This document shows, one piece after another, positions 7,026 through 52,889 of a stretch of DNA of 64,000 nucleotides (within the stretch, counting starts at the first letter, position 1; each line of letters opens with the position of its first letter). Location: positions 1-64,000 of the IMG/VR virus record IMGVR_UViG_3300046318_000171. One strand, given 5' to 3'. The position numbers and the translations under genes were made by a program. The DNA is from a virus. The notes under the pieces are model-generated. The model saw nothing but the letters and a program-made list of their open reading frames with translations, did no database searches and was not told the DNA's origin.

Positions 7026-7790
7026 TTAATTACCGAACAATCCCTGTCCACGGTTATTACCTGCTGTACCAAGTAGCTTGGCACGGTTCTTCGCATAATC
7101 TGCCATAGACATATTGTTAATGTCATTTGGTGAGTACTGTCGTGAGTCCGAGTCGTTGTCGAGGGGTCCAGAAGCAGGGCTCGTAATACGAGTTCCTACC
7201 ATTTCCTTGCGACTCTGCTGTGCAACTTGCGCAACCGAGTCGAAGATTTTCGCAGAACGTTCCTTAAGACCAAGGATGCTCTGCTCGATTTCATCCTTAG
7301 AATTTCCAGAAATAAGGTCAATCAGTTCTGGAATGATGCTGTCACGCTCAGCCTCAAGACGCTGCTGGCGGTACTGGCTAAGTTCCTGGAATTCACGCTC
7401 ACGCTCAAGAAGAGCGAAAGCCTTTTCACGGTCCTCACGCTCACGCTTGAGTTCCGCCTGCCATTCCTGTTCCTTCTTTGCAAGAAGGTCACGAACCTCA
7501 AGTTCGGCTTCCTCCTGCTTTTTGCGCTCTGCTGCCGCTTCAGCCTCACGGGCTTGGCGAGCTGCTTTGCGCTCGGCTTCTTTAGCCTCTCGCTCCTGCT
7601 CCTTTGAACGGAGTAGTGCAAGTTCTTCCTGTAGCTTCTCTACCTGAGGATAAAGCTTAGCCTTCTCCTGAGCACGTGCTTTCTGAATTGCTTCAGCCAC
7701 TTTGTCAGTGTTTGGAAGGTAGTTCTCCTCTGCAGGAACTGCTGCAGGTACTTCAGTAACCTCAGTTACTTCTGTGGTGTTTTCATCCAT
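7026..7790 (-). CDS. Capsid scaffolding protein
   Basis: 254 residues, dominated by a highly charged coiled coil from about 35 to 150 (repeated KEQEREAKEAERKAARQ-type heptads), with a short acidic N-terminus and a flexible C-terminus ending GQGLFGN. Phage scaffolds are long, charged, helical proteins encoded between portal and capsid, which fits exactly. No protease motif is visible, so maturation protease activity would have to come from elsewhere or be absent. Confidence 0.85.
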   Translation of the reverse strand: MDENTTEVTEVTEVPAAVPAEENYLPNTDKVAEAIQKARAQEKAKLYPQVEKLQEELALLRSKEQEREAKEAERKAARQAREAEAAAERKKQEEAELEVRDLLAKKEQEWQAELKREREDREKAFALLEREREFQELSQYRQQRLEAERDSIIPELIDLISGNSKDEIEQSILGLKERSAKIFDSVAQVAQQSRKEMVGTRITSPASGPLDNDSDSRQYSPNDINNMSMADYAKNRAKLLGTAGNNRGQGLFGN

Positions 7791-13243: not shown

Positions 13244-13927
13244 TTAGCTAGCAGCAGCATAAGCAACAATGCTGATTGCGTCACCAACAGACTTCTCGTC
13301 AGCGCCTGCGGCAACTGACTGGGTCTTGATGGTTCCAGCAACACCGGTCAACGAACCGGTTGAGTTGATGCCAGTGGTGTCTGCTACGGTGAAGCCAGTA
13401 CCCGATACGGTTACGTTACCTGAAGTGGCAGCGGTTACGGTCCAAGTGCCAACTGCGTAAGCAGGTACTGCAACAGGGGACGAGCCAGCAGCGGTTCCAA
13501 GGGCGATTGCCAACTTAGTACCTACTGGGTAAGCGGTGCTTGCTGAGGTGGTGTAAACAACTGCGCTAGTTGCGCTAGTTGCGTTGAATCGGGTGATGTC
13601 CTTAGCAGCGTTAGTTGCTGCAGTACCAACAGTAACAACAAGACCTGCATCCTCAAGGATGTCGGTTGCGTTAGCGGTGGTCTGGCCGATTACTGAAGGA
13701 ACTACGATGAAGCCAGCGCCTTCTGCACCCTCAGTGTTAGGGGTGTAAAGTGGGTAGCCGTTCCAGCCTTCGTAAGCGATTGAGTGGTTGTCAAGAGTAG
13801 CGTCAAGAAGCTCGCCGCCGTTCTCTTCACGAACGTCGTTTGGCTGTAGTGGGAAGTTACCCCATACAAAGTCAACAGCGACGTTACCTGCGGTGTCGAG
13901 CAGGTTTCCGTTTTCATTAGTTGCCAT
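13244..13927 (-). CDS. Virion protein with PASTA-like domain
   Basis: 227 residues. Residues about 75-105 (VVPSVIGQTTANATDILEDA followed by GLVV) fit the PASTA domain pattern of a Pro, a Gly-Q/K turn, then an Ala/Leu helix leading into GL. The rest is Ala/Thr/Ser/Val-rich beta sequence typical of decoration or fibre proteins. It is bracketed by a hairpin upstream and a strong terminator downstream, as for an abundant structural protein. PASTA domains bind peptidoglycan or muropeptides in kinases and PBPs; a role in contacting the cell wall is inferred. Confidence 0.7.
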   Translation of the reverse strand: MATNENGNLLDTAGNVAVDFVWGNFPLQPNDVREENGGELLDATLDNHSIAYEGWNGYPLYTPNTEGAEGAGFIVVPSVIGQTTANATDILEDAGLVVTVGTAATNAAKDITRFNATSATSAVVYTTSASTAYPVGTKLAIALGTAAGSSPVAVPAYAVGTWTVTAATSGNVTVSGTGFTVADTTGINSTGSLTGVAGTIKTQSVAAGADEKSVGDAISIVAYAAAS

Positions 13928-26463: not shown

Positions 26464-26610
26464 ATGACCACAGCCTACAAAGTCTTAGCGTATGCAGGAG
26501 TCGCAGTGATGTGGCTTGCTGTATTCGCAAGTGGTGTTGTGCCCCTTATCTTGGGTGCAACACTAGCGGGACTAGGCACAAGCCTAGTTCTAAGTCAACT
26601 AGATAAATAG
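26464..26610 (+). CDS. Small membrane protein before the amidoligase
   Basis: 48 residues, almost entirely hydrophobic with two likely helices (VLAYAGVAVMWLAVFASGVV and LILGATLAGLGTSLVL). Starts immediately after the preceding stop and ends nine bases before the amidoligase ATG, so it belongs to the same operon. It could localise that pathway to the membrane, but this is only a positional inference. Confidence 0.65.
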   Translation: MTTAYKVLAYAGVAVMWLAVFASGVVPLILGATLAGLGTSLVLSQLDK

Positions 26611-26618
26611 GAGGAACA

Positions 26619-28382
26619 ATGCCAACTATCCCAGACCTAACGGTCGAAGATGTTGTCGCTGACCCACAAGTCGGTGTAAGTGTTCGGCATCTGCTGAACA
26701 ACTGGCGTGGGTCACAAGCCCGTTTGTCTGTCTATGGTAAGACAGACGCACGCATCCTTAGTGCAGCGTGGGACAGCCCACGTGATGTAAGTTCTAAGGA
26801 AGATGCAGTTGCTTTCGCTACTTGGATTACCAAGTTGTGGGACCACAGCAACCACATCACCAGCAACATTGAGTTGTTCTTGCCAATGCTGTCGTTGAAC
26901 ACAGACGATAGCGTGTCTATCCGCCACGCAGGTATCCAATCTACGTGGATGCGAGATGACATTGGCAACAGCGACATCATTCGCATCAAGGTAGATGCTA
27001 TCGCCAAGTTGTTTGGCGACCAAGCCAAGCTGCTGAGTTACGAAGAGTCGTCTGCACTCGGCTACAACAGCGACCGTGCAGTGTTCAGGTTCGTCAACAG
27101 CGACAAGTTTGCTGATGACTACATTGCAGACTCAAGTCAGCCGCTTATGGTTCGCACCAAGTGGTTGGCTGAGCGCAAGGCTTGGCAAGATGCAATCAGT
27201 GGTATAGGCTATTCGTCAGTGCAACCTACTGCTGACGGCAAGAGCCTGCTGTATGTGATGCCGTGCAACTCACGGTCGGTCAAGTCAATCGGCTTGTCAA
27301 TGTACCGCAGAGTTGCTGCTGGCATTGTTGGTATGAGCAATCGCCCAACATCAGCAGACCTCTGGCGTCACTTCCGCAACGAAGTCATTCGTCTAGAAGC
27401 ACGTGCCAATGGCACAGACGAAGCGGTGTTGCAGCAGCTCAAGTACAACAACTACGAGCAGTTCTGGTCCAAGATGAAGCAGGACAAGAAAGAGCGAGCC
27501 AAGGTTGTTGACCAAGCGGCTGTCGAAGCAATGTGGGCAACCATCCCAATTGCTGAAGCAGGCACCGAGTCAAGTCGTGGCTGGGGTATCGAAGTCGAGA
27601 CAGTTCGTGCTAACCAGACATCACGACCACGTGGTTGGGAAGATGTGTACGACGGCTCACTGCCAGAGTCCGGTGGTGGTTGCAACTGTGGTTGCGACGA
27701 CTGCTGCAATGGTGACCACTGCGACTACGAAGATGACGACTGCTTCGCCAACAGTGGTGGTGGTGAGTCAAGAGAGTTCGTCTCACCTATCCTGCGGTAC
27801 TTCAACAGCAATGGTCTGCGTCAGTTGTGCGGTGACCTTGGTGATGTCGAGCAATCTACAGCCCCAGGTATCCACGTTCACGTTGGTGCCGAAGACCTGA
27901 CAGTCACAGACGTAGCCCGTGTGCTGTTTGCCTATGGCGTAGTTGCTCCGTTCATCCAGCCGCTGTATCACCGCAAGGTGTTCGGTTACTGCCAAGAGAT
28001 GCCCGGCAACAATGTCCAGTGGTGGCTGACTGCTGCTAAGCGTCGTCTACAAGAGACAGGCAGAGTGCCACGACCTGCTGACATCTGCCACGAGCAGCCC
28101 GTCAACCGCTACCAAGATGTGAACACTCACGCCTTGGCTGCACACCAGACCCTAGAGTTCCGTGCTATGGGTCCGTTCTACAACTACGAGCACCTAGTCC
28201 GTTGGGCTTGGTTCTGCCGAGAGATGTTGAATGTATCCCGACTCAACCTAGACCAGCGTGTCTGGACTAGTTGCGAGTCACTCACTGATGTCATCAATGT
28301 ACTACGCAAGTATGGCTCAGAGTTCCCAACCGACAAGTCGCTGGCAGACACGCCAGCCGACACAAACACATACGAAGAATAG
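26619..28382 (+). CDS. Amidoligase-2-like (COOH-NH2 ligase) enzyme
   Basis: 587 residues, by far the largest protein of the rightward block. The C-terminal half shows the amidoligase_2 signature: WGIEVE (322-327), DGSL (345-348), EFVSP (386-390), GIHVHVG (417-423) and the late HQTLEFRAMG (509-518). These belong to the glutamine-synthetase-like COOH-NH2 ligases, which join a carboxylate to an amine using ATP. A Cys-rich loop (355-375, seven Cys) is inserted between the DGSL and EFVSP motifs and may bind metal. The first 300 residues are a novel helical domain. It is followed at once by a class II glutamine amidotransferase, a pairing reported for this ligase clan. Substrate unknown. Confidence 0.8.
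   Translation: MPTIPDLTVEDVVADPQVGVSVRHLLNNWRGSQARLSVYGKTDARILSAAWDSPRDVSSKEDAVAFATWITKLWDHSNHITSNIELFLPMLSLNTDDSVSIRHAGIQSTWMRDDIGNSDIIRIKVDAIAKLFGDQAKLLSYEESSALGYNSDRAVFRFVNSDKFADDYIADSSQPLMVRTKWLAERKAWQDAISGIGYSSVQPTADGKSLLYVMPCNSRSVKSIGLSMYRRVAAGIVGMSNRPTSADLWRHFRNEVIRLEARANGTDEAVLQQLKYNNYEQFWSKMKQDKKERAKVVDQAAVEAMWATIPIAEAGTESSRGWGIEVETVRANQTSRPRGWEDVYDGSLPESGGGCNCGCDDCCNGDHCDYEDDDCFANSGGGESREFVSPILRYFNSNGLRQLCGDLGDVEQSTAPGIHVHVGAEDLTVTDVARVLFAYGVVAPFIQPLYHRKVFGYCQEMPGNNVQWWLTAAKRRLQETGRVPRPADICHEQPVNRYQDVNTHALAAHQTLEFRAMGPFYNYEHLVRWAWFCREMLNVSRLNLDQRVWTSCESLTDVINVLRKYGSEFPTDKSLADTPADTNTYEE
28341..28368 (+). promoter_or_regulatory. Hairpin plus CCGACACAAACA element
   Basis: CTGGC AGACAC GCCAG is followed directly by CCGACACAAACA, ending 24 bases before the amidotransferase start, within the last codons of the amidoligase. 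One copy of the recurrent element. Confidence 0.5.
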
Positions 28383-28391
28383 GAGATACTT

Positions 28392-29489
28392 ATGTGTGGT
28401 ATCGCAGGCTTTAGCCTAAGTAAGACCAGCAAGATAAAACCTCGACAGTTGTCGAACGCTTTGCTGGGTGCAATCGAGGACCGTGGCGGTATGGCTTCGG
28501 GCTTCGCTTGGCAAGACAATGAGCATATGGGGTTCTACAAAGCAGCCGTCACCGGCTCTACCCTGTCGCTCAAGACAATGCCAAAGGATGTGCGTAATGT
28601 TATCTTGCACACCCGCCTAGCCACTCACGGCTCAACCAATGACAACCGCAATAATCACCCAGTGCTCTCGCCTAACGAGGACATTGCGTTGGTTCACAAC
28701 GGAGTCATTTACAACCACAACCAAGTACGCAATCAGTTGGGTATGACACTGCCAGATGTAGATACAAGTGTTATCCCTGCAATCATTGAGCAGCGTGGGC
28801 TTGACTCTATCAACGAGTTGGATGGTGATGCCGCAATTGCGTGGTTCAACCGCAAGGAGCACAACACTATGCACCTTGCACGCTACAAGCACTCACCGCT
28901 AGTTATGGCTCAGGTAGAAGACGGGTCATTCATCTTCTGCTCAACCGAGCAGTTGCTATGGCGTGTGCTTGTCAGTATGGACCTAATGCCAACGTGGATG
29001 GAGACAGCCAGCGAGCTGGACTACTTCACCATCCGTGATGGCGTAGTGATGAGCAAGTCGATGTTGCCTGAACCTAAGTACAACGACTACTCGTACGACT
29101 ACTCGTACTTCCGCCACCAGACAGCCGGTGCCAAGCCAAAGACTATCGGGTCTTCGTTTGCGTACTACGACGAGTGGGACGACGACTACACCCCGTATTC
29201 GTTCAACGGTAAGAACACCGACCGTGATGACGAGTTCGACAATGACGACGACTATGCCGAAGACGACTTCAACACTGACAATGTTGTGCCGCTCAATCGT
29301 GCAAAGTTCTACACCGTCATCTACGACACCATCATCAAAGACCACGAGTACATCTACTACTACGGCGACGAAGAGAAGACGTGGAAAGACGAGTTGTTCA
29401 TCTGGGCTAACGAGAACTACATCAAGTTAGTTGACTACGGAGTAATCGACAAGGGTGAGTTGCTCTCAACCACTGACGAGTTGTTCTAG
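28392..29489 (+). CDS. Class II glutamine amidotransferase
   Basis: 365 residues. The N-terminal Ntn-hydrolase GATase-II domain has nucleophile Cys2 (MCGIAGF), arginine in HTRLATHG (73-80), oxyanion motif HNGVIYN (102-108) and GDAA (145-148). It releases ammonia from glutamine. No synthetase or isomerase domain is fused; instead an Asp/Tyr-rich tail (about 230-300) precedes a small C-terminal domain. Acting with the adjacent amidoligase, it could supply ammonia for an amide product, or have the amidoligase's chemistry reversed. The operon spacing is 9 bases with AGGAG. Confidence 0.9.
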   Translation: MCGIAGFSLSKTSKIKPRQLSNALLGAIEDRGGMASGFAWQDNEHMGFYKAAVTGSTLSLKTMPKDVRNVILHTRLATHGSTNDNRNNHPVLSPNEDIALVHNGVIYNHNQVRNQLGMTLPDVDTSVIPAIIEQRGLDSINELDGDAAIAWFNRKEHNTMHLARYKHSPLVMAQVEDGSFIFCSTEQLLWRVLVSMDLMPTWMETASELDYFTIRDGVVMSKSMLPEPKYNDYSYDYSYFRHQTAGAKPKTIGSSFAYYDEWDDDYTPYSFNGKNTDRDDEFDNDDDYAEDDFNTDNVVPLNRAKFYTVIYDTIIKDHEYIYYYGDEEKTWKDELFIWANENYIKLVDYGVIDKGELLSTTDELF

Positions 29490-35290: not shown

Positions 35291-35580
35291 TGGATGAACT
35301 AATAGACGACTCAGTCGACTTTACGCAAGCAAAGTGTGCGACTAAATCTGATGCTTGGGAAATCTTCTTCCCAGAAGGCAAGGAAGTACCAGCCAAGATT
35401 CGCTACGCTAAGGCCCTATGTGGTCAGTGCCCGGTTGCTATTGCCTGTCTTACCAAGGCTATGGGCATGGGTGCCGAACTACACGGTATCTGGGCCGGAA
35501 CTACTCAGATTGAACGCAACCGTATGCGCAAGGACTTGAACTTGCTTGAGCTTCACGTCAAGAGTTTGCCAACATCCTAA
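35290..35580 (+). CDS. WhiB-family Fe-S transcription regulator
   Basis: 96 residues with the four-Cys 4Fe-4S site C16, C44, C47, C53 (CGQCPVAIAC) and the GIWAGTT turn (66-72). WhiB proteins occur only in actinobacteria and their phages and work with the principal sigma factor region 4. Phage versions can repress host whiB genes or redirect transcription. Last gene of the rightward block. AAGAGGAGG site. Confidence 0.92.
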   Translation: MDELIDDSVDFTQAKCATKSDAWEIFFPEGKEVPAKIRYAKALCGQCPVAIACLTKAMGMGAELHGIWAGTTQIERNRMRKDLNLLELHVKSLPTS

Positions 35581-37823: not shown

Positions 37824-37858
37824 ATCAGATAGCCCGTAAACCTAGTTCTCTATCTGAT
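37824..37858 (-). other. Hairpin at the end of the TGT-like gene
   Basis: ATCAGATAG pairs with CTATCTGAT across the stop codon. AT-rich with no T-run; likely an mRNA 3'-end structure upstream of the reductase promoter. Confidence 0.5.
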
Positions 37859-39317
37859 TACGGATAATCATGGTGGTTTTCTCTTCGCCTAACCCTGCCT
37901 GCTGGTCCTTAACGGCCTGCACACGGTCACCAAAAATCGCACTCAAAACACCCTGTCCAGCACTACGCTGCGCAGTAATCTGGATGAACTCTTTGTTCTC
38001 GTCCAGCTCTTTAATATTCTTCAACATCTTCTGATAACGGTCAATCTCTTGCGACACGTTTGGGTCTGCGTATCCACCGTTCAATTCTTCTGCAAACCGC
38101 ATAAACATTACTCTCTGGGCCTGCATCTCCAACATTGCGGTATTCAATGCACGCAACTGTTCAGGGGTCTTAACCTCTACTGGCAGACTAAACGCACAGG
38201 TGTTTTGCGGCTTAAATGCAGGGCAATTTGACGCTACAAAACAGGTGTCGCACTGGCGCAAACTGGTCACATTTGAACTAACAACAACGCTGTCTTTGAG
38301 GACATCAACACCGTTTTCGGTTTCCACAACCTGCTTGACTTGGTACCCCAAAACAGGCATTGAAACGACCTCTTCTGGGTCTCTTTGGACCACTTCTGAG
38401 CGTTCAACTTTCCGCATCTCCGACCCACTGTTATTAGACGACCCCCCACCCATTTCCATCAAACCCGTGTATAGGGTGTCGTCACTCTTATCAGATAGGA
38501 ACGGGTTATTATTGGTTGTCATGTTGCCTTCTAACTGTAAATATGACCAAACGGCTACTTTAGTCGCTTCGGTTGTGTCGTCGTCTACGAACTTTTTGAA
38601 ATCTAGCCCAGCTCGGTCCAACGTCGCCTTGTATCTCGGTCGGGCCTGGGCTTTCATTTTTTTTGGGTATCGAACCAGCTTCATTCCATCCCAAATGATT
38701 GTCTCACCATTTCTCATTGGTGACAACCACGACAGTGTGCTTGTGGTTGTAAACGGAATACTCCTCAGGTTATCCGGTTTGGCCACTGCAAGGCCGTGGA
38801 ACCGTGTTTGATACTTTTGGACTAAACTACGTGTAATCCCCGCTAATGCCGTCACAGCGTCTACAGCGGCTCCTGGGAGGGCAATGTTCTGGTACTCCTC
38901 TGCCCACTGACTTATCACCGGCAAACCGTACGCTTCGTGCCACACCACCCACAACTTAGGGTCGTTCTCAAATGCGGCTCGTTGCTGCTTAATCCACGGC
39001 AATCCCATTACCTGGCTGTCAAACTCAACCCAGCCCTCAATACGGTCGTAATTTAGGGCGATAAACTCTTCATACTCGGCCGCATAATCCTCTAACTCGG
39101 CCCTTGACAGGTTGGCTTTATCCGCCTGAGTTGCCCCCGAGTCTACCCACACTTTCATCTCTGGCAGGAAATGCTCACCAATTAGATACGCCTTGTTCTT
39201 AGGCAACCCACGCTTCTTCAACCCCCAGTAATTCAACATTACGTGTTGAACACCGCTCTTCTCCAATAGGGTGCGGTTTGACGGGATTTCTACGCCCCCA
39301 AAAATTACCCTACTCAA
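37842..39317 (-). CDS. TIM-barrel protein, TGT/DpdA-like (tentative)
   Basis: 491 residues starting at TTG, which overlaps the upstream stop by 8 bases. The N-terminal half looks like a barrel: VWVDSGATQADK (about 57), EGWVEFDSQ, FHGLAVAKPDNLRS and TTSTLSWLSPMRNGETIIWD. The DSG turn and StxSW motif recall phage DpdA and tRNA-guanine transglycosylase relatives that exchange guanine for a deazapurine in nucleic acids. A Cys cluster CDTCFVASNCPAFKPQNTC (about 349-367) may bind zinc or Fe-S. No preQ0 synthesis genes occur in the window. Family assignment is uncertain. Confidence 0.5.
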   Translation of the reverse strand: MSRVIFGGVEIPSNRTLLEKSGVQHVMLNYWGLKKRGLPKNKAYLIGEHFLPEMKVWVDSGATQADKANLSRAELEDYAAEYEEFIALNYDRIEGWVEFDSQVMGLPWIKQQRAAFENDPKLWVVWHEAYGLPVISQWAEEYQNIALPGAAVDAVTALAGITRSLVQKYQTRFHGLAVAKPDNLRSIPFTTTSTLSWLSPMRNGETIIWDGMKLVRYPKKMKAQARPRYKATLDRAGLDFKKFVDDDTTEATKVAVWSYLQLEGNMTTNNNPFLSDKSDDTLYTGLMEMGGGSSNNSGSEMRKVERSEVVQRDPEEVVSMPVLGYQVKQVVETENGVDVLKDSVVVSSNVTSLRQCDTCFVASNCPAFKPQNTCAFSLPVEVKTPEQLRALNTAMLEMQAQRVMFMRFAEELNGGYADPNVSQEIDRYQKMLKNIKELDENKEFIQITAQRSAGQGVLSAIFGDRVQAVKDQQAGLGEEKTTMIIRNQIEN

Positions 39318-42669: not shown

Positions 42670-44568
42670 TTAACGTAGAACGGTGGCGTTTACTCGTGGA
42701 ATTCCCACGCCTGCCATAGTTTGAAGGGTTTCACGGTACTTACCTACCAAGTCAGAACCTGCGCCTAGGTGAGCGAGGTCCTGCACGTGAGAGCTCTCTG
42801 ACCCTGCTTTAGCGAGGTACTTTGCAGCGTCAGTAGTACGGTCCATGGCTGTACGCATGTGTCCAGCCAAAATCTGTGGGTCAGCAGAATCGTTGCTCTT
42901 AAGGTAACGGCTGTGCTCCTGGAACGCTCCTAGGGCGTTGTTTAGGTGCTGAGCTACGCTAGGGTCAACGTCTACACCCTGGCCAACCAAGTCTCTGTAC
43001 GACTTCTTTACAGCGGTAAAGTGGTCGTACATGTTCTGCATCTGGCTCTTAACACCAGGTGCGTACTTAGCGGTACGTTCATCAGTTGCTTGGGTATTCT
43101 TGGCTTGCTGGTTGGCGAAGATTTGTGCACGAGTCATCTCACGCAAACTTCCCCATGACGACTTACCTTCACGCTGCTGAGTTGCACGGATGTTTGGTGC
43201 GTAAGTAGCAAACGCCTCATCTTGACGTTGCTTCTTCAATTCCTCAAGGTCTCTTGCGGTGTTCTTCTTGTCATAACCTACAGGAGCCATAACAGGCACT
43301 GACGTGTCCTGCTCTCTTGGAGATTGCGCACCAGGAACGTTGATGTTGTTTTTCTTCAAGTATTCTGCTGGATTTTTTTCGACTTCTGCTCTTGCAAACG
43401 CATGAGATTGTGCGGCGCTTCTCTGAACCAAGTTCTGGTTTCCTGAAGCGTATTCTGTAAAACTACCCGCATTATCAAACTTGTTTACCGCTTCTTCGTA
43501 TCGTGCTTGGTGGTCTGGAGATGGGAAAGCCAACTCAAGAGTTCCGTACCTAGTTGACCCACCAAAATCACGAGGAGTTGGGCGCACTGGAACAGGGTTG
43601 TTAGCGTCGAAGTGCTGCAAAGCTGCCTGCTTGATTACTGGTGACATACCAGCAACAGGGGTGACTGTGGCTGAGCTACGGACCATACCGATTGTTCTAG
43701 GCGGAGTCTTTGCCTCGGTGTACGCCTGAGCCTCTAGTGAACGCTCGTAACGTTCACGGGCATGCGATGCGTGGTCTTCACCGTTAGGGAACAACTCACG
43801 AGTACCAAAAGGAGCACGGTTAGTCTCGTTGATTACGTCGCCAATTCCCTTACCCGAACCTTCTTTTCTGCGCATGTGCCCAACAATTTCGTTAGCAGCA
43901 TCACCATAAGTGCGGTTTTGATTGCGGTAATTGTTAGTAAAATCTCCACCACTTTGGCCAGCGATTAGGCGTAGGTGGTGAGCAGCCATGCCGATAGCTT
44001 TTGCTGCCATGTTGAGGTGGTCACCCGGAGTTCGCAAACGCTGGTTCTTAATCTCAGCGACATCGTTTCCAGACAATGCCTGTCCAGGAATTTCGGCGTC
44101 ACCCAAGTGCAGGGCACCGTACAAACCTAGCTTAGCTCCACCACCAGTTTTCCAGTTAGTTCCCTTGCCACCACGGGCAACGTTTTCTGCGTCCGCAATG
44201 TGAGCGTATGCGTTTCCAAGTAGTGGGTGAACGTGAGAGTCTAGAAGTGCTCGAGTATCCTCGTCTGCGTTGTCGTGGTGCTCATCAGCAGCGTTACTCA
44301 GCTTAGTGATGAGGTCTGACATGTGCCCAAACAAATCGTTAGGCGCAGTACCTGTGCTAGCTGCCTCAGTGTACTCTGCGACACGGTCAACTTTTTTTGC
44401 CTCTGCAGCACCCGCAGCAATCTTGTTAGTCTTAGTGCCTTTAGGTGCCATTCCCTTTACTGCAGCACGAGTTAGGCGAGCGGCCTCTGCACGCTTGGCA
44501 GCTTCTGCTGGCGACTGGCCTTTTAGGTAGCCGCCGATTCCGCCTTGATTACCATTGTTGGTTGCCAT
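42670..44568 (-). CDS. Large unknown protein, possibly virion-internal
   Basis: 632 residues: an Ala/Lys-rich N-terminus (SPAEAAKRAEAARLTRAAVK), a His-rich helical region (about 80-230), a disordered Pro-rich centre, then long polar helices to the end (LRNNALGAFQEHSRYLKSND-type). Composition (Ala, Gln, Asn, Lys; few Cys) resembles internal or ejected phage proteins more than enzymes. Alternation with the very similar-sized 599-aa gene suggests a pair. No catalytic motif recognised. Confidence 0.65.
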   Translation of the reverse strand: MATNNGNQGGIGGYLKGQSPAEAAKRAEAARLTRAAVKGMAPKGTKTNKIAAGAAEAKKVDRVAEYTEAASTGTAPNDLFGHMSDLITKLSNAADEHHDNADEDTRALLDSHVHPLLGNAYAHIADAENVARGGKGTNWKTGGGAKLGLYGALHLGDAEIPGQALSGNDVAEIKNQRLRTPGDHLNMAAKAIGMAAHHLRLIAGQSGGDFTNNYRNQNRTYGDAANEIVGHMRRKEGSGKGIGDVINETNRAPFGTRELFPNGEDHASHARERYERSLEAQAYTEAKTPPRTIGMVRSSATVTPVAGMSPVIKQAALQHFDANNPVPVRPTPRDFGGSTRYGTLELAFPSPDHQARYEEAVNKFDNAGSFTEYASGNQNLVQRSAAQSHAFARAEVEKNPAEYLKKNNINVPGAQSPREQDTSVPVMAPVGYDKKNTARDLEELKKQRQDEAFATYAPNIRATQQREGKSSWGSLREMTRAQIFANQQAKNTQATDERTAKYAPGVKSQMQNMYDHFTAVKKSYRDLVGQGVDVDPSVAQHLNNALGAFQEHSRYLKSNDSADPQILAGHMRTAMDRTTDAAKYLAKAGSESSHVQDLAHLGAGSDLVGKYRETLQTMAGVGIPRVNATVLR

Positions 44569-44771
44569 TACGCCATCTTTCCTTTAATTCTTTTTGCTCG
44601 CTTAATCTCAGCACAAGGAGAGCAAATACCTAAACGACTGTACATGTACTCCGTAGGGTTCATCACAATACCGCATGATGGGCAAGCAGATGAGCCTTTA
44701 TACAGGGTAGCATTTTTTGCGATTTGAAATGCCTGAAGTTCTAAAGTTAGAGCGCCGTCTCCGTCGTTCAT
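44568..44771 (-). CDS. Zinc ribbon protein between the two large genes
   Basis: 67 residues with CPSC and CSPC pairs 18 residues apart and a basic end (KRAKRIKGKMA): a classic two-knuckle zinc ribbon. TAATG overlap at both ends. Confidence 0.75.
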   Translation of the reverse strand: MNDGDGALTLELQAFQIAKNATLYKGSSACPSCGIVMNPTEYMYSRLGICSPCAEIKRAKRIKGKMA

Positions 44772-46570
44772 TACTCCCCAATCTTAGGCAGTGATGGGAC
44801 GACTGTGCGGTCACGCATAGTTTCCTTTGCCATTGCCATGGCTTGAGCAGTACCGCTTGCTCGGAGTACCTTGCGCAAATCTTTAGGAACCTGTCCTTGC
44901 CCCTCTACACCGGTGCCTGTTCCAGCAACAATGTGGTCGTGGGCTTCTTTGATTAGTGCGGTCATACCACCTGGGGTAATTCGCTCAATCATTCTAGGGC
45001 CAGATTTTTCTGGTTTTGCGGTAGATTTACGTGGCTTCTTAGCTTCAGCTGCTTCTTTAGCCAACTGGTCTTTGATAGACAACGACGGCCCCATTTCGCC
45101 AACCGGACGGTCAGGTCCTCCGGCACGAGTAGTTACTCCACCGGTGGTTTCTACTGGGACACCTACAGCGGCACGGCCAGCGTAAACTGCTCGCTGACCC
45201 TTACGAGTCTGGTTAAGGAATCCTTGAAGTTTAGGAATGTCTGGGTGGTTAGACGAAACGGCTTTCAACTGAGTTAGCAGCTTGTTGCTGATAGGCTCCT
45301 GACGAAGTTTACCTGCAGTTTCTGAGTTTACAACTTTACCGTTCTTAACAATAGGCTGTTCACGGTCTGTAGAAATAAACATGTGACCTGGCTTTGACAA
45401 AGCATCTTCTGGATTAAGAAGGTTGTTGTCCTTGTCGTACCTAGCCAATAGCGGGTCGATGTCCTGGAGTGCCTGAACGTTTGTCTTGTTCTTCGGAACC
45501 TGTAGACCCTTAGTTTTTTTCTCTCCAGTAGGAGTGGTGGTCTCCTTGTAACGGACTGCGTTTGCTACATCGCTCATTTCGCTGTCTGAGACTGGGCTCT
45601 GCAAACCGTGCTTGCTAAGCAACGAACGGTTAAGGATTCCGTTAGCGGTCTTTAGGTGCTTAACTGCTTTAACGATGAAGGCGTGGTTGTCCGCCTGGTT
45701 TTTAAACTTAAACTTACCATCGCTACCCTTCAATCCACTAAGAATAGACTGCGCCTCGACCAGGTTGTTATCTACTCCAAGCTTCTCACGAAGAACGTGT
45801 GCGCTTGCTTGCGTGCGAAGTTCTCCTGCGCTATCACGAGCAGTGTTTATCATGCTTCTGACTGAGCCAGCAGCCTTACCTTTTAGGGAATAGCCTTGGC
45901 TTATAGTGTCTGCAACGTTGGCACGACGGTCGTACTCTGACGCTTTTGAGTTTAGCTTTGAATCCAATCCGTCATAGTGCGCACGGATTCGGTCATGGAT
46001 GTCCATGGCGACTTTCCATGCCTTGTCTGCTGCGCCTGCACCACTAAAAGTTTGGCGCTTAAATGATGGGCCAGACTTAACTGGAGTAGGAACAAACCCT
46101 TTGTTGTGCTCACACTTATCGGTGCTGCAACGGCCACGCAAGATGTGGTCAGTGATATGCTTAACAGCGTCTTCGGTAACACGAGACTTATAGATGTTGT
46201 CTTCAGTGTCAATCTTGTCTTCAAGAGAGCTGCCTTCTGCCTGCTTTTCTGCAGGAGTTCGGTAGTCTGGGCGGGTCCTGACACCGTCTAGGTCTATCTC
46301 AGATAGGTCAGTGTTCTGGGCTGTAGGTGCGGCCATGTCAGCAGTAGACAAGGTGCGGCCCGAGTCATACTCGTCAAATCCTTTGCCGCCAACTTTAATC
46401 TTGTCAGCGTCGGCCTCGCTCATAGCGTGGGCAGAGTCGGCCCTCTTACGGCCCTCTTCGGCCTTAGCTGCAGCAGTCGTCTCTGCAGTGTCGAGAATTG
46501 CCTCGCCACCTAAGACCTTTTGTGCTTCGCTTGCGCTTTTAAAGAGTTCGCTGCGACTTACTGAACGCAT
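44771..46570 (-). CDS. Large unknown protein, possibly virion-internal
   Basis: 599 residues, highly helical and charged. Contains a Cys/His group (RCSTDKCEHNKGFVP, about 157) and a Pro/Lys-rich C-terminal quarter (AAEAKKPRKSTAKPEKSGPR). Like the 632-aa neighbour it lacks recognisable enzyme motifs. Candidate ejection protein or capsid core protein; alternatively an early host-interaction protein. Confidence 0.65.
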   Translation of the reverse strand: MRSVSRSELFKSASEAQKVLGGEAILDTAETTAAAKAEEGRKRADSAHAMSEADADKIKVGGKGFDEYDSGRTLSTADMAAPTAQNTDLSEIDLDGVRTRPDYRTPAEKQAEGSSLEDKIDTEDNIYKSRVTEDAVKHITDHILRGRCSTDKCEHNKGFVPTPVKSGPSFKRQTFSGAGAADKAWKVAMDIHDRIRAHYDGLDSKLNSKASEYDRRANVADTISQGYSLKGKAAGSVRSMINTARDSAGELRTQASAHVLREKLGVDNNLVEAQSILSGLKGSDGKFKFKNQADNHAFIVKAVKHLKTANGILNRSLLSKHGLQSPVSDSEMSDVANAVRYKETTTPTGEKKTKGLQVPKNKTNVQALQDIDPLLARYDKDNNLLNPEDALSKPGHMFISTDREQPIVKNGKVVNSETAGKLRQEPISNKLLTQLKAVSSNHPDIPKLQGFLNQTRKGQRAVYAGRAAVGVPVETTGGVTTRAGGPDRPVGEMGPSLSIKDQLAKEAAEAKKPRKSTAKPEKSGPRMIERITPGGMTALIKEAHDHIVAGTGTGVEGQGQVPKDLRKVLRASGTAQAMAMAKETMRDRTVVPSLPKIGE

Positions 46571-52518: not shown

Positions 52519-52889
52519 TTGTTCTCCTTTTTATCTAGCTGAAAGATGTATTCCTTCAGCGTCATAGTATCTTTATAGTTCTTCCGCCACTTTCGCACAA
52601 GGGCGTTACGTTCTCTATGGCTTAGTCCGCCCCAGATGCCGTTACCAATGTCCTGGCTTACGGCGGTCCATAGGCACTCAGCTCTTACCGGACAAACACT
52701 ACTTTTGTTTGGTCCAAAGCAATAGGTCTTTGCTTCATCAGCAATCTTCTTGTAGAGCTCTTTGTCTCTTGGTGGGAAAAAGATGTTTACATCTACTAGA
52801 AAGTTTCCCTCGTCATCAACACTCCAGCAAGCGGCATCTGTGTACCACTCAAGGTCGCCGTCACGAGGAAGCAGGTTCTGAAGACTCAT
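52515..52889 (-). CDS. WhiB-like regulator with altered Cys spacing
   Basis: 124 residues. Cys at 21, 57, 66 and 72 with the GIWGGLS turn (84-90) and C-terminal basic segment identify WhiB. The second and third Cys are 8 residues apart instead of the normal two, so the Fe-S loop is expanded. Second WhiB of this phage, encoded with replication genes. Overlaps the exonuclease start by 4 bases (ATGA) and its upstream neighbour by 29. Confidence 0.85.
   Translation of the reverse strand: MSLQNLLPRDGDLEWYTDAACWSVDDEGNFLVDVNIFFPPRDKELYKKIADEAKTYCFGPNKSSVCPVRAECLWTAVSQDIGNGIWGGLSHRERNALVRKWRKNYKDTMTLKEYIFQLDKKENK

Follow-up and report, generated by a model that had tools for sequence, protein, structure and literature searches.

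The window analyzed here, a 64,000-nucleotide stretch within a 91,238-bp IMG/VR virus record, contains two adjacent plus-strand genes whose open reading frames are separated by 9 bp. The first (positions 26619..28382) encodes a 587-residue protein of the Amidoligase_2 family with a predicted glutamine synthetase (GS)-like carboxylate-amine ligase fold, and the second (28392..29489) encodes a stand-alone class II glutamine amidotransferase of 365 residues. A 48-residue open reading frame with two predicted helices (26464-26610) lies upstream of the ligase gene. The record also carries genes encoding portal, terminase, DNA polymerase, helicase, RecA, SSB, and ribonucleotide reductase proteins. 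The record has WhiB-family genes, as do 26 of 31 records with the ligase-amidotransferase pair, which points to actinobacterial hosts for these phages; in the window, the WhiB-family genes are found at 35323-35526 (+) and 52599-52847 (-), both above the Pfam cutoff. Elsewhere in the window are a gene (13244-13927, minus strand) for a phage protein that contains a PASTA domain (PF03793, E value of 1.8e-6), a domain usual in wall-sensing kinases and penicillin-binding proteins, and two large open reading frames of 632 and 599 residues (42670-46570, minus strand) that had no Pfam match above the cutoff and no PHROG match.

Sequence and predicted structure of the two enzymes

The ligase matched Amidoligase_2 (PF12224) over residues 316 to 536 with a score of 38 bits against a cutoff of 22 and was assigned by PHROGs as "amidoligase enzyme," in agreement with the identity proposed in an earlier note on this DNA. 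The motifs listed there (WGIEVE, DGSL, EFVSP, GIHVHVG, and LEFRAMG) are all present in the translation, and alignments of 36 to 39 divergent ligases, including that of the window, contained a set of invariant residues at each of them. These include G323, E325, and E327 of the GIEVE motif (27585..27599, plus strand, as are all of the ligase features given here), which is predicted to form the metal-binding strand of the GS-like site; D345 and S347 of the DGSL motif (27651..27662); E386 of the EFVSP motif (27774..27788); G417, H419, and H421 of the GIHVHVG motif (27867..27887); and T511, E513, and R515 of the TLEFRAMG motif (28149..28172; 36 ligases), with N502 likewise invariant. The AF2 model of the ligase, with a pLDDT of 82 overall and mostly above 90 in the catalytic core, adopts a carboxylate-amine ligase fold, as the earlier note had anticipated. 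Foldseek searches of solved structures with this model returned YbdK (1tt4/1r8g) as the top match, with a probability of 1.00, an E value of 0.006, and a TM-score that was low because the query is a multidomain protein; glutamine synthetases followed. As read from the translation, the GS-like catalytic motif set is complete, and the invariant residues together with the predicted YbdK/glutamine synthetase fold support ATP-dependent activation of a carboxylate by the ligase. To our knowledge, YbdK and glutamine synthetase, which share the predicted fold of the catalytic core, have neither a cysteine-rich loop like the one described below nor a dedicated amidotransferase.

The N-terminal region of the ligase (residues 1 to 315; 26619..27563) had no family match above the cutoff. 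Pfam and PHROG searches with residues 1 to 300 returned nothing significant, with DUF7711 (E value of 0.01) falling below the cutoff, so that the description of this part as about 300 residues without a known family held. The AF2 model has a mixed alpha/beta structure there, with pLDDT values mostly between 65 and 95, and the region can be aligned among ligase homologs at low identity. Two scans of bacterial genome contigs for cellular relatives returned no full-length relative and a single weak partial match. One predicted phage protein that resembles the ligase structurally (BFVD A0A6J7X2B6) carries the name "LIM domain containing protein," a sign that its cysteine-rich part was probably mistaken for a zinc finger during annotation.

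The amidotransferase begins with MCGIAGF and matched both GATase_6 (PF13522; 74.7 bits, above the cutoff) and GATase_7 (PF13537; 52.6 bits, passing), and PHROGs and NCBIfam concur on the fold. Class II amidotransferases use Cys2, exposed by removal of the initiator Met, as the nucleophile, together with an Arg, an Asn-Gly oxyanion hole, and an Asp. These five catalytic residues (C2, R75, N103, G104, and D124) are invariant across four homologs of the window protein, which, with the profile matches, confirms the class II assignment with a Cys2 nucleophile. Beyond the GATase profiles is a C-terminal extension rich in Asp and Tyr (29049..29489, plus strand), which ends in ELF or IF in close homologs and is divergent in the homolog alignment except for a YxYxYxRHQT stretch and the last residues. 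In one related locus (L010, about 7370-7380), the amidotransferase frame has no ATG ahead of the TGC cysteine codon; the sole start-like codon after AAGGAG is ATC (AAGGAGAATATC ATC TGC GGT, or one codon earlier), pointing either to a rare ATC start or to a contig error.

Pairing of the genes and their genomic neighborhood

A scan with the amidotransferase profile identified 231 relatives, from which 80 loci were retained; removal of near-copies left 53 nonredundant loci, annotated phages included. A recognizable ligase was found within about 1 kb of the amidotransferase in 47 of these 53 loci, on the same strand in 31 and on divergent strands in 16, and the ligase-then-amidotransferase order of the window was kept in four close relatives (L002, L003, L004, and L006). 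No ligase was scored in the other six loci. In two contigs (L029 and L067), the sequence ahead of the amidotransferase is shorter than 1 kb, and a ligase could lie past the contig end; phage LUZ24 (L013) carries a PF12224-type ligase that the ligase profile did not score; and in two further loci (L040 and L048) the Cys-loop ligases are divergent and fall under the profile threshold, leaving L096 as the only one of the six without a ligase outright. In L010, an HNH gene and another open reading frame lie between the two genes, an arrangement that looks like a mobile-gene insertion that left the pairing unbroken; HNH-type open reading frames were also observed downstream of the ligase in L009 and L010. 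Recurrence of the pair across dozens of divergent phage contigs takes it beyond chance, and the pairing reported in the earlier note can be described, at the level of gene content, as near-obligate.

Retention of both genes could also arise without joint chemistry, if the ligase joined peptides independently of an amidotransferase that worked as a glutaminase, and the two genes stayed adjacent solely as members of the early region. The surroundings do contain many more small early genes. However, the ligase and amidotransferase are associated far more tightly with each other than with any other neighbor: over 39 loci of the long-ligase lineage described below, the most frequent families were the amidotransferase (38 loci) and the ligase (34 loci), and the next real ones were present in only 17 and 15. 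The association also outlasts inversion to divergent strands, and both genes show the same split into two lineages, all of which makes independent function of the two proteins improbable.

The two-helix open reading frame is present in the window but was absent upstream of the ligase in L002, L006, and L015-L018. It is therefore not a conserved part of the system. The earlier note had placed it in the same operon and the reaction possibly at the membrane; membrane coupling through this protein was rejected, and a membrane location is unsupported. The broader interpretation in that note of an amide-making phage pathway retains the enzyme identities, their pairing, and the cysteine-rich insertion and loses the membrane site. 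None of the PADLOC models for antiphage defense matched.

The window also encodes a DpdA-like transglycosylase (queuine tRNA-ribosyltransferase, phrog_887, E value of 1.3e-57; 37842-39317, minus strand), whose closest annotated relatives, at 31 to 33% identity, come from Streptomyces phages (GiJojo and BRock, for example). This gene, together with Salmonella phage 7-11, which combines DpdA with a ligase/amidotransferase module and has trace dADG and no dPreQ0 (PMC6884629), raised the idea that the pair amidates 7-carboxy-7-deazaguanine, or its form in DNA, to a 7-amido base as a phage DNA modification. Yet just 3 of the 30 pair-containing records had phrog_887, the QueC, FolE, and TGT families were found in 0 of 25, and dADG in phage 7-11 amounts to only about 0.02% of G (PMC6884629). 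We regard amidation of a deazaguanine base as very improbable and rejected it as the function of the pair. As no preQ0 pathway gene was found, the DpdA-like gene would rely on preQ0 from the host.

Two lineages of ligases and the cysteine-rich loop

The pairs fall into two lineages. Ligases of the first are short, lack a Cys loop, and are often accompanied by a gamma-glutamylamine cyclotransferase (GGACT), whereas those of the second, which includes the window, are mostly longer and have a loop of the form CxCxCxxC...H(C) that separates two catalytic strands. The GGACT family (PF06094) was detected in 14 of the 26 short-ligase records, among them LUZ24 and the Arthrobacter phages, and in none of the 25 long-ligase records (the window's record and 24 related records; the LUZ24 control was positive), a difference with a Fisher P value of 1e-5 over records that are not independent and include some short fragments. 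PF13772 was likewise absent from the window's record and the related records. A tree built from the amidotransferase alone separated the short- and long-ligase sets exactly, with support of 100/100, and recovered the Cys group of the window as a clade with support of 96/95. Judged from their sequences, the ligase and amidotransferase split into the same two coevolving lineages, with the window pair belonging to the separate, widespread long-ligase one.

This division is seen in comparison with described phages. In Arthrobacter phages Salgado (gp98-gp99) and Ottawa (gp65-gp66), which also have actinobacterial hosts, an amidoligase lies directly upstream of a class II amidotransferase as it does in the window, but the ligases are about 325 to 340 residues long without a Cys loop or long N-terminal region, GGACT is present in the same genome, and the amidotransferase falls in the other clade. 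The phiEco32/LUZ24/RIO-1/7-11 phages encode a predicted peptidoglycan modification cassette in which, as in the window, a PF12224 ligase lies close to a class II amidotransferase in the early region (PMC3890496, PMC5498523, PMC11945000). In the phiEco32/LUZ24 cassette, the amidoligase and amidotransferase are linked with a second COOH-NH2 ligase, an ATP-grasp protein, and GGCT (PMC5498523, PMC11945000); GGACT, in contrast, is missing from the window's record and its lineage, which indicates that this record does not hold the full cassette. The PF08443 profile (ATP-grasp, RimK model) matched no record, and it also missed LUZ24 gp21, which is annotated as RimK-like. In phages of OM43 bacteria, PF12224 and PF13522 occur together as they do in the window; these phages have other hosts, and the accessible part of their description assigns no function to the two genes and mentions no Cys loop (PMC10580990). 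Since the pair and a predicted role for it have already been published for phages, what is new here is the Cys-loop lineage rather than the pair, along with its lack of a cyclotransferase and the parallel division of the two genes.

The cysteine-rich insertion noted earlier between the ligase motifs proved to be real and widely shared. It spans residues 355 to 375 (27681..27743, plus strand), with the pattern CxCxCxxC....HC......C, and is flanked by the DGSL strand on one side and, on the other, by the strand bearing the invariant E386. It contains seven cysteines (355, 357, 359, 362, 363, 368, and 375) and His367. Among the four closest homologs, C355, C357, C359, C362, G365, and H367 are invariant, Cys363 is not conserved, and two other loop cysteines are kept at shifted spacing. 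Of 71 unique ligases, 31 have CxCxCxxC at the same position; Cys-rich variants of the loop occur in L048 and L055. Where the Cys loops could be delimited, they held 6 to 10 cysteines in 29 to 49 residues, compared to 2 to 8 in the whole rest of the protein; short ligases with a delimitable loop had 2 to 11 residues there and at most one cysteine. In the group that includes the window, CxCxCxxC is followed by a His and more cysteines, and a second group (L028-L058) has 9 or 10 cysteines in the pattern CxCxCxxCxxHxCxCxxC...HC...C. Other ligases have an acidic loop at this position (L009 and L010) or looser Cys/His inserts (L018 and L019). The loop is thus a stable feature of one lineage. Its cysteine spacing and paired histidine suggest that it is probably a metal-binding insert, an argument from pattern because two AF2 models leave the loop unmodeled (pLDDT of 38 to 48). 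No description of this loop was found in the accessible literature, which did not include the founding paper (Iyer et al. 2009) or the one on phage Marvin.

A model for glutamine-dependent amide synthesis

We propose, with slightly more confidence than doubt, that the two genes encode a glutamine-dependent amide synthetase of actinobacterial phages in which the amidotransferase supplies ammonia, the ligase amidates a carboxylate, and the Cys/His loop is a metal-nucleated accessory insert. The amidotransferase would hydrolyze glutamine by means of its N-terminal cysteine, and the ammonia released would presumably be passed directly to the amidoligase. The ligase, through its GS-like site, would spend ATP to convert the carboxylate first to an acyl phosphate and then to an amide. 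The Cys/His loop, flanked by the DGSL and E(F/Y)VSP strands, would be nucleated by a metal at the rim of the active site and may serve in substrate recognition, partner docking, or stability rather than in the chemistry itself, for which it is dispensable given its absence from other paired ligases. The ligase could also use a different amine in place of ammonia.

The role of the amidotransferase is where a competing account differs. The ligase may instead form a gamma-glutamyl-type amide that attaches an amino acid, a polyamine, or a peptide, as a tag or a wall cross-link, with the amidotransferase-fold protein and the cyclotransferase of the sister lineage trimming or recycling the amide and supplying no ammonia. 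The presence of GGACT in so many of the short-ligase records fits this account, as do the close folds, which include that of YbdK, a gamma-glutamyl-cysteine-ligase-like protein, and the published reading of the phiEco32/LUZ24/RIO-1 genes, which gives a degradative role to the cyclotransferase and amidotransferase (PMC5498523). The long-ligase records nonetheless keep the amidotransferase with GGACT found in none of them, so it cannot be merely an accessory of the cyclotransferase, and its consistent presence favors a direct role, most simply ammonia supply. We therefore consider a gamma-glutamyl-type amide possible but rather unlikely. A more specific version of the amide synthetase model is about as doubtful: the Cys-loop lineage may be a separate metal-dependent branch of glutamine-driven amide synthetases in which a CxCxCxxC...H(C)...C cluster (Zn or Fe-S) at the active-site rim binds the acceptor or the amidotransferase, and in which the amide is stable, needs no cyclotransferase, and is unlike the product of the known phage cassettes.

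In the MurT-GatD system, which resembles the proposed scheme, a ligase receives ammonia from a separate glutamine amidotransferase; unlike the window pair, the ligase has a Mur ligase fold and the amidotransferase is of class I rather than class II. MurT-GatD amidates glutamate in peptidoglycan (PMC3267633), and peptidoglycan has been suggested as the target for related phages (PMC5498523, PMC10580990, PMC11945000). Our leading guess for the substrate of the window pair is the carboxylate of a host cell wall precursor, or of a similar host molecule.

No biochemical test of a phage amidoligase-amidotransferase pair was found in the literature surveyed. Such pairs are found in phages that infect very different hosts, and in one lineage the system is reduced to two genes, with a conserved Cys/His insert by the predicted active site as a testable determinant. 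The minimal two-protein system of actinobacterial phages offers a good entry to a first product, and if the wall is its target, it would represent a phage route to the amidation of host wall carboxylates.
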